This document shows positions 10,956 through 15,847 of a stretch of 64,000 nucleotides of DNA, piece after piece. Position numbers and translations under genes: made by a program. This stretch comes from Modicisalibacter xianhensis (GTDB lineage Bacteria > Pseudomonadota > Gammaproteobacteria > Pseudomonadales > Halomonadaceae). The stretch covers positions 186,001 through 250,000 of the forward strand of contig NZ_FOPY01000002.1 of assembly GCF_900113605.1 (NCBI RefSeq), written 5' to 3'. Position 1 is the first letter of the stretch. Every line of letters starts with the position of its first letter. Below the pieces are notes generated by a model that had not been told where the DNA came from, did no database searches, and saw nothing but the letters and a program-made list of their open reading frames with translations.

Positions 10956-11756
10956 TCAGACCGATACGTGCGGCTTGAGCCGCTGCACCATCGCCTTGAA
11001 CAGGCGTGGGCCGGCAGCCATGAGATCGCTCTCGGGGCCGACGCTGGGGGTACCGTCGGGACCGCCGATCAGCGCGCCGGCTTCCTTGAGCAGCAGCGAG
11101 CCGATCAGACTGTCCTGCTCCTCGAGACCCAGCACCAGCACGGCATCGGCACGGCCGGCAGCCATTTCGGCGATATCCAGCAATGGGCAGCCCGTGGCTA
11201 TCACGGTCTCGACCTGGGGACCGAGTTGCTGCAGCACGCGCAGGTAGGTCGGGAAATGGCGGGCACGCAGCCAGCTTTCGGGCAGGCCCATGGCCAGACG
11301 AATGCCGGTGACGTTGGTCGCCTTGCTCACGCGGATACGCTTGCCGTTGTGCTGGGCGCCGCGACCGCGGCTGGCCAGGTATTCGTCGTCACTGAACGGG
11401 CAGATCACCACGGCATGTTCGGGGCGTCCCTTGACCAGGCACACCAGTGAAATGGCACAGCCGTTGCCTGCGACACCCAGGTTGGAATAGCCATGGAAGG
11501 GTTCGATCTTCCAGACGATGTCACGGCCTTCGCCCTCGCCGTCGCGGTGCGGCGTGAAGCGGCCGGAGACGCCATGCTGCGGATAGCCACGCGCGAGCTG
11601 ACGCACGATCAGCGTCTCGGCGTTACGCGCGGCATCTTCCAGCAGGCCTTCGAGATTGCGGTCTTCATGAGCTGTCTCGATGCGCTCACGAATGCGCACG
11701 AACTGTTCGGCGGCGCTGCGCGCGGCGCGCAGCGCAAATTGGACCATCGGATGCAT
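10956..11756 (-). CDS. suhB: SuhB-family protein with degenerate inositol-monophosphatase active site
   Basis: A 266-residue member of the inositol monophosphatase family, placed as in pseudomonads directly divergent from trmJ-cysE-iscR. The opening MHPMVQFALRAARSA is typical SuhB. However, the signature D-P-[LI]-D-G-[TS] is EPFHGY at residues 85-90. The GEES glutamate motif is replaced by VSGRF (63-67), and the WD motif is QD (214-215). Three of the four acidic metal ligands are therefore altered, so phosphatase activity is doubtful. E. coli SuhB has a second role in the Nus rRNA antitermination complex that does not need catalysis, and that role may be what is kept here. The start is the first ATG matching the family. 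Confidence 0.9.
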   Translation of the reverse strand: MHPMVQFALRAARSAAEQFVRIRERIETAHEDRNLEGLLEDAARNAETLIVRQLARGYPQHGVSGRFTPHRDGEGEGRDIVWKIEPFHGYSNLGVAGNGCAISLVCLVKGRPEHAVVICPFSDDEYLASRGRGAQHNGKRIRVSKATNVTGIRLAMGLPESWLRARHFPTYLRVLQQLGPQVETVIATGCPLLDIAEMAAGRADAVLVLGLEEQDSLIGSLLLKEAGALIGGPDGTPSVGPESDLMAAGPRLFKAMVQRLKPHVSV

Positions 11757-11913
11757 GATCGGGGCCTTGAGGAGTCGGTCACTGTTAAAGAACGCCGGGC
11801 ATGCTAGCAAAAAGTCGCATCGTGGGCCACGAAAATCGCCCTGTCCCGCCGCCACGTCATGTCACATGGTAGACTGTCGGGTTCATCGTCAACGACTCGG
11901 ATTGTTTCCTGAC

Positions 11914-12693
11914 ATGCCCGCTTCTGCCTTTTCCCTCGACCGCCTGCGCATCGTGCTTGTCGGCACCAGTCACCCCGGCAACATCGGCGGTGTCGCCCGC
12001 GCCATGAAGAACATGGGCCTTAGCGACCTGGCCCTGGTGGCACCGCGTTGCGAGGTACATTGCAGCGAGTCGATCTCGCGGGCGTCGGGAGCGGATGAGA
12101 TTCTCGCCAAGGCCCAGGTTCATGACACGCTCGACGCGGCGCTCGGCGATACCACCCTGGCCGTGGGCGCCAGTGCTCGCTCGCGCACCCTGCCCTGGCC
12201 AATGCTCACGCCCCGCCAGGTGGGCGATAGTCTGAGTACGGAAATGGCTCACGACGCAGCCCGCGTCGCCCTGGTCTTCGGCCGCGAGGACACCGGACTT
12301 ACCAATGCGGAACTGCAGCGCTGTCACCGTCACGTGCACATTCCCACCAACCCCGAGTTCAGTTCATTGAATCTGGCTGCCGCAGTTCAAGTGCTGGCCT
12401 ACGAATGCCGACAGGCGTGGCTAGCGGCACCGGGCACCGAGAACGTTCACGAGGACGATGCCCCCTTCGGTGTCGAGTGGGACAGCCCGCTGGCCGACCA
12501 TGCGGATCTGGAGCGCTTCTTCGAGCATCTGGAACGCACCCTGGTCGCCATCGAATTCCATGATCCCGACAATCCCCGGCAATTGATGGCCCGGCTGCGC
12601 CGTCTCTACCTGCGTGTGCGCCCCGACCGCATGGAGATCAACATCCTGCGCGGCATTCTCACTGCCATGGAAAAGCGCGCCCGCGGGCATTGA
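11914..12693 (+). CDS. trmJ: tRNA (cytidine/uridine-2'-O-)-methyltransferase TrmJ
   Basis: A 259-residue SPOUT methyltransferase that modifies the ribose of nucleotide 32 in tRNAs. The knot motifs are visible: [14 protein letters not shown] near the N-terminus, [13 protein letters not shown] in the middle, and [18 protein letters not shown] forming the SAM-binding knot. A C-terminal helical extension (about 170-259) matches TrmJ rather than TrmL. The ATG at 11914 begins the conserved domain; longer frames run into the divergent suhB. Synteny with suhB and cysE agrees. Confidence 0.94.
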
Positions 12694-12818
12694 CGAACTC
12701 GCTGAAACGTCGGTCCCGCACATACCTTGCAGGGCCGGGGCCGCGCCCCAATAATATTTGCCCCCACGATTCATCGCTGCGGTCGACTATCGGCCTGGCC
12801 CGTGACAAGGATCGCTTC

Positions 12819-13712
12819 ATGTTCAGCCGTCTGCGTGAAGACATAAACAGTGTATTCGCCCGGGACCCTGCGGCCCGCAACTTCCTCGAAGTCCTGACCA
12901 ACTATCCGGGCCTGCATGCCCTGCTCGCCCATCGCCTGAGCCATTGGCTGTGGGCGCACAACCTGAAGTGGCTGGCGCGCAGCATATCGACGCTGTTTCG
13001 TTGGCTGACGGGCATCGAGATTCACCCCGGGGCACGCATCGGTCGGCGCTTCTTCATCGATCATGGCATGGGCGTGGTGATCGGCGAGACCGCCGAGGTC
13101 GGCGACGATGTCACGCTCTATCAGGGCGTGACGCTGGGCGGCACCAGCTGGAACAAGGGCAAGCGGCATCCCACGCTGGAAGACGGCGTCATCGTCGGGG
13201 CCGGCGCCAAGATCCTCGGCCCGTTCACGGTCGGGGCCGGTGCCAAGATCGGCTCCAACGCGGTGATCACCAAGGCGGTGCCGGCCGGCGCCACGGTGGT
13301 CGGGATTCCGGGCAAGATCGTCAAGCGCGCCGACCCCGATGTGGAGGAAGTCCCGGCATTCGACCCGGAGCGGCGCGAGGCGATCCGCCAGAAGTTCGGC
13401 TTCGATGCCTATGGGGTCAGCCAGGACATGCCCGACCCGGTCGCGCGTTCCATGCAGGCGATGCTCGACCACATGCATGCCGTTGACCAGCGCATGGATA
13501 TGATGTGCGAGACACTGCGCAAGCTCGATGCCGGCTATCGTGCGGGGCACTGGCCAGAGTTGCGCGACGAGGATTTCGCCGAGATCCTCGCCGATGTCGA
13601 GAGTTGCTGCTCGCTCCCCGAGGACGAGCCGGCAACGAAAGGCGATGACGGGAGCCAGGAGGCGTCTCCGGCGTCCCCGCTGCCTCGCAAGCGCTCCGGA
13701 GGGGAGCGCTGA
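12819..13712 (+). CDS. cysE: Serine O-acetyltransferase
   Basis: A 297-residue left-handed beta-helix acetyltransferase that makes O-acetylserine for cysteine synthesis. The N-terminal helical part ([21 protein letters not shown]) is followed by hexapeptide repeats ([38 protein letters not shown]). A long C-terminal extension beyond residue 210, rich in charged residues and ending in low-complexity sequence, resembles the extended CysE of pseudomonads. AAGGA lies about eight bases before the ATG. Its position just upstream of iscR-iscS links cysteine supply to cysteine desulfuration. Confidence 0.95.
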
Positions 13713-13835: not shown

Positions 13836-14306
13836 ATGCGCCTGACCACCAAGGGACGCTACGCCGTCACCGCCATGCTCGACCTGGCCCTGCATGCCGA
13901 CCAGACGCCCATTTGCCTGGCCGATATCTCGCGTCGCCAGGAAATTTCCCTGTCGTACCTCGAGCAGCTTTTCGCCAAGCTACGGCGGGCCAAGCTGGTC
14001 AAGAGCGTACGCGGGCCCGGCGGTGGTTATCTTCTGGCGGTGTCACCGGCGGCCGTGTCGGTGGCCCGCGTGATCGATGCCGTCAACGAGTCGGTGGACG
14101 CCACCCGGTGCCAGGGCTTGTCTGACTGCCAGCAGGGCAGCACCTGCCTGACTCATCACTTGTGGTGCGAACTGACTCACGAAATTCATGCATTTCTCGA
14201 CGGTGTGACCTTGGCTGACCTGGTCGAGCGTCATGAGGTGCGCAACATTGCCGCTCGCCAGCGACAGCGTGTCGATGGCGACACCATTGCCGTGGACTCG
14301 CCCTGA
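13836..14306 (+). CDS. iscR: Fe-S cluster-sensing transcriptional regulator IscR
   Basis: A 156-residue Rrf2-family regulator. The winged helix-turn-helix ([20 protein letters not shown] through [20 protein letters not shown]) is followed by the three cluster-ligating cysteines in the spacing [13 protein letters not shown], with the nearby histidine LTHHLW. These define IscR rather than NsrR or CymR. It should bind a [2Fe-2S] cluster and repress the isc operon when clusters are sufficient. A matching Type 1 site lies upstream. The gene is followed by iscS after 36 bp. Confidence 0.96.
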
Positions 14307-14342: not shown

Positions 14343-15491
14343 ATGAACGGACCCGTTTATCTCGATTACGCCGCGACTACCCCGGTCGACCCCCGTGTCG
14401 CCGAGGTCATGAGCCGGCACCTGACGCTGGACGGCATCTATGCCAACCCGGCGTCGCGCAGCCACATGCCCGGCTGGCAGGCCGAACAGACCGTCGAGAA
14501 CGCCCGCCGCCAAGTGGCCGACCTGATCGGTGCCGACCCGCGCGAGATCGTCTGGACCTCCGGCGCCACCGAAGCCGACAACCTGGCTCTGATCGGCTTC
14601 ATGCGCGCCAACCGCGCACGTGGACGTCACCTGATCACTTCTACCATCGAACACAAGGCGGTAGTGGATACCGCCACCGCCCTGGAGGCGGAGGGCTTCG
14701 AGGTGACCTGGCTGTCGCCGGGCCCCGATGGCCGCGTCTCGCCCACACAGCTGGCCGAGGCCATGCGCGACGATACCCTCCTGGTGTCGCTGATGGCGGT
14801 GAACAACGAACTCGGCGCGATCCACGACCTGGCGGCGCTCTCCGAAGTCACCCACGCGCACGGCGCCGTGCTGCATGTCGATGCCGCCCAGGCCTCGGGC
14901 CGCATCCCGCTGGACGTCAACCAGTTGGGAATCGATCTGATGTCGCTGTCGGCTCACAAGGTCTACGGTCCCAAGGGGGTCGGTGCGCTCTACGTTCGCC
15001 GCAGCCCCGACATTCGGGTCGAGGCACTGATTCACGGGGGCGGCCATGAACGCGGCATGCGTTCGGGCACGCTACCCACCCACCAGATCGCCGGCATGGG
15101 CGAGGCCTTTGCGCTCGCCGAACGCGAAGGCCAGCAAGACCAGGAGCGCATTGCTGGCTTGTCGCAGCGCTTTCTCGACGGCTTGAGCGACCTGCCCGGC
15201 GTGCACCGCAACACGGTGGCTGAGGTATCGGTACCCAATATCGTCAACCTGGCCTTCGACGGGGTGGATGGCGAGTCGCTGTTGATGGCGTTGCGCGGCA
15301 TTGCGGTATCCACCGGCTCGGCCTGCAACTCGGCGAGCGTCGAGCCGTCCTACGTGCTCAAGGGTATTGGCGTGCCTCGCGCGCGTGCACTGACGTCATT
15401 GCGCTTCAGCTTTGGCCGCTTCACCACCGAGGAAGACATCGATACTGCCATTGCCGAACTACGGCATGCCGTGACTACACTGCACCCATGA
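14343..15491 (+). CDS. iscS: Cysteine desulfurase IscS lacking the C-terminal IscU-docking tail
   Basis: A 382-residue PLP enzyme that mobilises sulfur from cysteine. Visible features are the N-terminal VYLDYAATTPVDPRV, the PLP lysine in SAHKVYGPKG, and the catalytic-loop cysteine in STGSACNSASVEPSYVL. It ends at FGRFTTEEDIDTAIAELRHAV plus a few residues, about 20 residues short of E. coli IscS, whose tail contacts the scaffold IscU. No iscU follows; iscA begins 29 bp downstream. The enzyme presumably serves tRNA thiolation and other sulfur acceptors, and perhaps a non-Isc scaffold. Confidence 0.94.
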   Translation: MNGPVYLDYAATTPVDPRVAEVMSRHLTLDGIYANPASRSHMPGWQAEQTVENARRQVADLIGADPREIVWTSGATEADNLALIGFMRANRARGRHLITSTIEHKAVVDTATALEAEGFEVTWLSPGPDGRVSPTQLAEAMRDDTLLVSLMAVNNELGAIHDLAALSEVTHAHGAVLHVDAAQASGRIPLDVNQLGIDLMSLSAHKVYGPKGVGALYVRRSPDIRVEALIHGGGHERGMRSGTLPTHQIAGMGEAFALAEREGQQDQERIAGLSQRFLDGLSDLPGVHRNTVAEVSVPNIVNLAFDGVDGESLLMALRGIAVSTGSACNSASVEPSYVLKGIGVPRARALTSLRFSFGRFTTEEDIDTAIAELRHAVTTLHP

Positions 15492-15520
15492 CACGCCGCT
15501 TCATCATCGAGGAGTAAACA

Positions 15521-15847
15521 ATGGCTCAACTCAAGATCACCCCTGCAGCCGCCAGTCAGATCCGCCAGGTCCTCGACGAGCGCGGCCACGGCCTGGGCCT
15601 GCGGGTGAGCGTCAAGCCCAGTGGCTGCTCCGGTTACAGCTACGTGCTCGACTTTGCCGACGAGGCCGCCAATGAAGATATCGCCTTCGAGGAGCACGGC
15701 GCCAAGGTCTACGTGGCCCCCGACGCCTTGGCGATGCTCGACGGCAGCGAGGTGGACTATGTGTCTGAAGGTCTCAATCGCTTCTTCCGCTTCAACAATC
15801 CCAACGTCAAGGATCAGTGTGGCTGCGGCGAAAGCTTCAGCGTCTGA
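15521..15847 (+). CDS. iscA: A-type iron-sulfur carrier protein IscA
   Basis: A 108-residue HesB/IscA-family protein with the three invariant cysteines in SGCSGYSY and the C-terminal QCGCGESF. It delivers or holds Fe-S clusters or iron. It follows iscS directly where iscU would normally lie, so the locus goes iscR-iscS-iscA and then to ndk. The A/G-rich GAGGAG... region upstream supports the ATG at 15521. Assignment to IscA rather than ErpA rests on the isc context, and the motifs alone do not separate them. Confidence 0.9.
   Translation: MAQLKITPAAASQIRQVLDERGHGLGLRVSVKPSGCSGYSYVLDFADEAANEDIAFEEHGAKVYVAPDALAMLDGSEVDYVSEGLNRFFRFNNPNVKDQCGCGESFSV

Follow-up and report, generated by a model that had tools for sequence, protein, structure and literature searches.

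The suhB locus of Modicisalibacter xianhensis raises the question of what a SuhB protein does when most of the residues of its metal site are gone. Within the window, i.e., the whole stretch of 64,000 nucleotides that was analyzed, suhB (10956..11756, minus strand) encodes a protein with an inositol monophosphatase (IMPase) fold and a degenerate active site. An initial annotation, made from the sequence alone, had proposed a natural separation-of-function SuhB, in which this lineage kept a structural or RNA polymerase role and gave up inositol phosphate hydrolysis.

The suhB locus and the lost metal ligands

Translation of the frame (11756-10956, minus strand) gave 266 amino acids followed by a stop, with zero internal stops, and the protein begins MHPMVQFALRAARSA. 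The divergent neighbor of suhB is trmJ (plus strand, in the scanned stretch 11920..12693), beyond which lie cysE (12816..13712, plus strand), iscR (13836..14306, plus strand), and iscS-like and iscA-like genes. As trmJ was found inside the fetched flank at all 37 suhB loci of the same family, and trmJ and iscR are placed likewise at the E. coli suhB locus, the gene was rightly described as SuhB at its conserved locus. Positions 14343-15847 of the window hold the iscS-like gene, 29 bases, the iscA-like gene and then ndk. The iscU gene, which lies between iscS and iscA in E. coli, has no counterpart between the two genes of the window, and the IscS scores of the iscS-like gene were under the equivalog cut-offs.

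In E. coli SuhB, residues E67, D84, D87, and D212 form the acidic two-metal set that we take to be the metal ligands of the IMPase family. Alignment of the window protein with E. coli SuhB showed that three of these four are gone. E67 is replaced by R66 (11559..11561, minus strand), and D84 and D87 by E85 and H88 within E85-P-F-H88-G-Y90, which stands in place of DPLDGT (11487..11504, minus strand). Q214-D215 (11112..11117, minus strand) takes the place of W211-D212, leaving D215 as the sole remaining ligand. Further altered positions are E68 (F67), T89 (Y90), W211 (Q214), R184 (A187; 11196..11198, minus strand), K34, D44, and E205. The motifs had been read exactly in the initial annotation: EPFHGY occupies residues 85-90 (codons 11504-11487), VSGRF stands at the GEES site and QD at the WD site, and only the last aspartate is left. 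Since the phmmer alignment to Pseudomonas aeruginosa SuhB ran without gaps through the three motifs, with no shifted acidic substitutes seen, we rejected the idea that displaced residues stand in for the lost ligands. The protein matched Pfam PF00459 with 88.5 bits (cut-off 27). On the NCBIfam SuhB equivalog model it (P0001) scored 138 bits, under the cut-off of 332 bits, which an intact SuhB of the same order, L042, also failed to reach with 320 bits.

Degenerate SuhB proteins in related families

The families of our samples are coded f1-f45, with f1 being the family of the window. A search of related genomes gave matches in 57 of 58, and SuhB was degenerate in 37 of 37 same-family genomes, that of the window included, which makes chance or a sequencing error very unlikely. 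The stops flagged in some of the in-family matches are the C-terminal ends of proteins of 262-264 amino acids. We also searched 155 genomes sampled evenly across the order; a SuhB match at E <= 1e-12 was obtained in 144 of them and none in the other 11. SuhB genes were read in 105 of the 144; 40 were degenerate and 65 had all four ligands. The degenerate genes came from eight families (f1, f6, f7, f20, f26, f36, f37, and f43), so that a purely local oddity was rejected as well. The loss ascribed to "this lineage" is thus real, but its limitation to this lineage does not hold.

Among the best 80 of 574 named relatives, 69 loci were degenerate (68 readable and one with a broken frame), belonging to Halomonas, Billgrantia, Vreelandella, Chromohalobacter, Salinicola, Kushneria, Modicisalibacter, Halovibrio, and Oceanospirillum; the 11 intact loci belonged to Pseudomonas and kin. 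The closest named relative among the matches listed was a gene of Halomonas sp. McH1-25 (95%). The broken frame, L297 of Halomonas olivaria TYRC17, ends after 92 codons with only the first ligand readable and may be an assembly error. Four f36 proteins (L105, L128, L146, and L147) are half-way, with D87 kept and D84 and other pocket residues lost. Their genomes lack a close second IMPase, and they possibly represent the least degenerate branch. No SuhB match at E 1e-12 was obtained in G050, G088, G115, G139, G162, and G182 (f15) or in G129 and G174 (f38), whose completeness is 96-99%; SuhB may be absent or more diverged there.

A gene tree was calculated without the active-site columns from 47 selected rows, of which 27 were degenerate SuhBs and 20 intact ones. 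It split the two kinds at one branch with 100/99 support and requires a single change. The degenerate proteins formed one group joined to the intact SuhBs, apart from the second IMPases described below. A species tree based on NusA and InfB (65 rows, i.e., 64 genomes plus E. coli) set the degenerate lineages apart from one another, requiring three changes in the quick and four in the careful version; a single degenerate clade on this tree was not rejected (p-AU 0.0885). One old loss of the SuhB ligands is the likeliest course of events, though it is not proven.

Conservation of the altered pocket

A possible, though on balance doubtful, explanation is that the pocket was rebuilt, with R66, E85, H88, and D215 forming a metal-free charge network. 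Such a network could hold the loop or the dimer in place or accommodate a new ligand, and arginine would then stand in place of the Mg2+ ions. We analyzed a Halomonas-group set of 93 distinct proteins, consisting of f1 and the listed named loci minus Oceanospirillum-like rows. Among these matches, R66, H88, and G89 were invariant and E85 was present in 91 of 93. Eleven hand-picked pocket positions were more conserved than random columns, a fraction of 0.002 of 20,000 sets being as low, and for the four ligand positions 0.012 of the random column sets were as low. With the invariance of R66, H88, and G89, this argues that the Halomonas-group pocket is not drifting, although conservation would be expected of buried positions in any case. 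Arginine replaces E67 in most of f1, in the genes read from f26, f37, and f43, and in one f36 gene out of five. R184, invariant across the intact SuhB set, is alanine in 77 of the 93 listed Halomonas-group proteins; for the E. coli R184A variant, a stabilized dimer has been suggested (PMC6614801). On the other hand, the pocket varies by family, reading RDQE in f26, mostly LFLD in f20, and mostly RCDS in f37. Because the residues differ in this way, no single new site is common to the families. The replacement of the metals by arginine in a salt-bridge lock is a suggestion from the sequences.

The pocket also bears on the proposal that SuhB still hydrolyzes a phosphate ester through a different arrangement of metal ligands. 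The retained D215 and, in the family of the window, the acidic E85 favor it, but the change of E67 to arginine places a positive charge inside the metal site, D87, D44, K34, E205, and T89 are altered too, and other families have lost different ligands. We regard this proposal as very unlikely.

The NusA contact and the boxA leader of suhB

To our knowledge, K251 and L254 are the only residues of the NusA interface of E. coli SuhB that were tested by mutation. The first is kept in the window protein as K254 (10995..10997, minus strand), and the second is V257, a conservative change. Across the degenerate genes, the weighted frequencies at the position of K251 were 0.82 for K and 0.16 for R, and those at the position of L254 were 0.44 for V and 0.37 for L, the rest being I or M. 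According to PMC6614801, replacement of K251 and L254 in E. coli SuhB lowers the affinity for the AR2 domain of NusA more than 1000-fold. The AR2 domain itself was 0.57 identical to that of E. coli in 33 degenerate genomes and 0.58 in 30 others. Conservation of the surface that meets NusA, which had been named as a point to check, was thus found for the tested contact lysine.

The suhB leader contains a boxA, CGTTCTTTAACA (11783..11794, minus strand), 26 nt ahead of the start codon and identical in all 12 bases to the boxA of the E. coli suhB leader. Baniulyte et al. (2017; PMC5725501) demonstrated repression of suhB by the Nus complex via a boxA in the 5′ UTR and reported GYTCTTTAANA as the boxA consensus. 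The 4.36 Mb genome holds six perfect boxA sites and twelve matches to the reversed consensus. A lone match therefore means little, and the count alone is no evidence; what gives the boxA weight is that it precedes suhB and is conserved there. Two of the six sites lie 152 nt ahead of a 16S start motif. A third is identical to these two in sequence, but its contig ends, and the fourth is the suhB leader. For the remaining two, no 16S or 23S start motif was found downstream in the stretch taken.

A perfect boxA within 150 nt was present before 36 of 38 distinct degenerate in-family genes (0.00 expected from simple shuffles) and at 69 of 69 degenerate named loci among the best 80 of 574 relatives. 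Outside f1, perfect sites preceded the degenerate genes of f26 (6/6) and f37 (1/4) and were found in none of the remaining families. With one mismatch allowed, the numbers were 5/6 in f6, 2/2 in f7, 3/5 in f36, 2/4 in f37, 1/5 in f43, and 0/6 in f20. Of the intact genes, E. coli included, 3/65 had a perfect boxA and 17/65 one with at most one mismatch. A boxA is hence not universal among the degenerate families, which counts against the reading of SuhB as a dedicated Nus factor.

A second IMPase with intact motifs

Four IMPase-family genes are present in the genome: suhB, CysQ (283 bits, cut-off 229), a HisN-like gene that is under its own NCBIfam cut-off, and P0002 (L001; G000:C41:233213-234031). 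The last of these has intact motifs and is under every NCBIfam equivalog cut-off; it answers the earlier suggestion to look for a second, intact IMPase elsewhere in the genome. The view that inositol phosphate hydrolysis was given up agrees with the ligand loss of SuhB and does not carry over to the organism, which, with this gene present, is not obviously rid of the chemistry.

Orthologs of P0002 (E below 1e-60) were found only in families with degenerate SuhB, and the 19 placed in a tree formed a single clade. They were present in 32 of the 40 degenerate-SuhB genomes and in none of the 115 other genomes of the order sample, i.e., 0/104 with a SuhB match (39 of them not read letter by letter) and 0/11 without. 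Since both traits follow the phylogeny, this co-occurrence is not independent evidence: with kinship taken into account, two independent pairs remained on well supported branches, and the sign test was not significant. The eight degenerate-SuhB genomes that lack a close second IMPase count against the explanation that we favor.

We compared 72 distinct degenerate SuhBs and 65 distinct intact ones, that of E. coli among them, with 19 second IMPases position by position, using thresholds of our own choosing. Seventeen positions, among them K251, R139, and the M-x-P start, were common to degenerate and intact SuhB and not to the second IMPase. Another nineteen, including K34, D44, E67, E68, D84, D87, T89, E205, and W211, were found in intact SuhB as well as in the second IMPase but have been lost from degenerate SuhB. 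In the opposite direction, and counting against our reading, three positions (A225, G228, and P234) joined degenerate SuhB and the second IMPase to the exclusion of intact SuhB. This double dissociation is the strongest single argument that the enzymatic role was probably dropped and the SuhB-specific role kept.

One might instead assume that P0002 took over the Nus role and that the protein at the suhB locus does something else, as P0002 scores higher than P0001 on the E. coli SuhB model (165 versus 138 bits, cut-off 332). However, the K251 contact (K 0.14, weighted) and the positions specific to SuhB are for the most part missing from P0002 and the 18 related proteins compared, and no boxA-like leader was found before P0002 or the nine in-family orthologs examined. 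Its orthologs also form a separate clade and are missing from the same 8 of 40 genomes. With no boxA leader, a separate clade, and the SuhB-specific positions mostly missing, such a takeover is very improbable and was rejected.

Selection and predicted structure

The median dN/dS of suhB (Nei-Gojobori, pairs with dS >= 2 excluded) was 0.043 in the genus of the window; five other degenerate groups gave 0.051-0.136, and an intact Pseudomonas group gave 0.108. For trmJ, medians of 0.031-0.136 were obtained in the degenerate groups, the lowest value coming from one pair. The proposed dN/dS check thus gave values far below 1 in all six degenerate groups (0.043-0.136), and with the open frame of 266 codons it bears out the earlier statement that suhB is not a decaying pseudogene. 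The idea of such a pseudogene or an assembly error, toward which the broken frame of L297 points, was rejected as having practically no chance of being right: dN/dS is low, and the frame is full-length in all 37 same-family genomes and at the 79 other named loci among the best 80 of 574 relatives. Overall, the degenerate SuhBs were more variable than the intact ones (mean entropy 2.20 versus 1.42), which counts against our reading.

The predicted structure of the window protein had a mean pLDDT of 94. Its top Foldseek match was P. aeruginosa SuhB (8wip; E 2.4e-30, TM 0.91), and the first 11 matches included SuhB of the NusA-AR2 complex and of the rrn antitermination complex. As modeled, the protein is of IMPase-like fold, with SuhB structures closest.

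Discussion

We consider it very likely that the gene at the suhB locus is a SuhB ortholog that has lost Mg2+-dependent inositol monophosphatase activity and acts as a dedicated Nus factor; our best reading is a natural, clade-wide enzyme-dead SuhB specialized for rRNA antitermination. The proposal of a separation-of-function SuhB therefore stands, supported by the alignment, the trees, the second gene, dN/dS, and the contact lysine, and is amended in its breadth and in what it implies for the chemistry of the organism. The mapping of the ligand loss on trees, likewise suggested at the outset, gave one change on the gene tree and three or four on the NusA-InfB tree, and the alignment upheld the loss itself.

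For a dedicated Nus factor, the following mechanism can be envisaged. SuhB would fold as an IMPase-like scaffold, probably a dimer, bind the AR2 domain of NusA with its C-terminal part (K254), and join the NusB/NusE-boxA complex on nascent rRNA. The resulting SuhB-Nus complex would resist Rho and aid rRNA folding in the manner established for E. coli SuhB, and the boxA of the suhB mRNA would let the Nus complex limit the supply of SuhB by autoregulation. The window protein would thus bind NusA and RNA polymerase without being a catalyst. Its chemistry would have been dropped in a lineage that also had another gene of the IMPase family, one whose active site is intact, and the product of that gene may cover the lost activity. 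A more specific scenario, which we find rather unlikely in its entirety, is an old clade-wide divorce of the two jobs of SuhB: enzyme activity would be left to the second IMPase, and the Halomonas-group site would be a metal-free Arg-Glu-His-Asp lock that permanently fixes the form binding the antitermination complex, independently of Mg2+.

E. coli SuhB shares with the window protein the trmJ locus, fold, length, the N-terminal M-x-P-M, an ALRAAR-like block, K251, and the leader boxA. It differs in its full active site and its demonstrated IMPase activity (PMC4807359), the window protein lacking three of four ligands. P. aeruginosa SuhB (8wip, 8wdq) is the best match in structure and sequence (37% identity, E 7e-47) but has intact motifs, and 8wdq was, according to its title, crystallized with inositol-1-phosphate. 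In E. coli, the growth defect caused by loss of suhB is described as not tied to the loss of IMPase activity (Wang, 2007, cited in PMC4807359), and the citing study leaves open the link between the rRNA function of SuhB and its phosphatase activity (Singh et al., 2016). IMPase-defective E. coli SuhB variants are laboratory mutants, whereas the Halomonas-type loss is natural and extends across several families. In the open-licence literature we found no report of a natural SuhB without its ligands.

Across several families, SuhB has kept its locus, strong purifying selection, and the NusA-contact lysine after the loss of its metal site; Halomonas-group genes have kept the boxA as well. This provides natural evidence that the two roles are separable. 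The degenerate proteins offer ready-made enzyme-dead orthologs for structural work, and the second IMPase makes this a candidate case of one job split between paralogs. Annotating the degenerate SuhBs of these organisms as inositol monophosphatases is probably incorrect.
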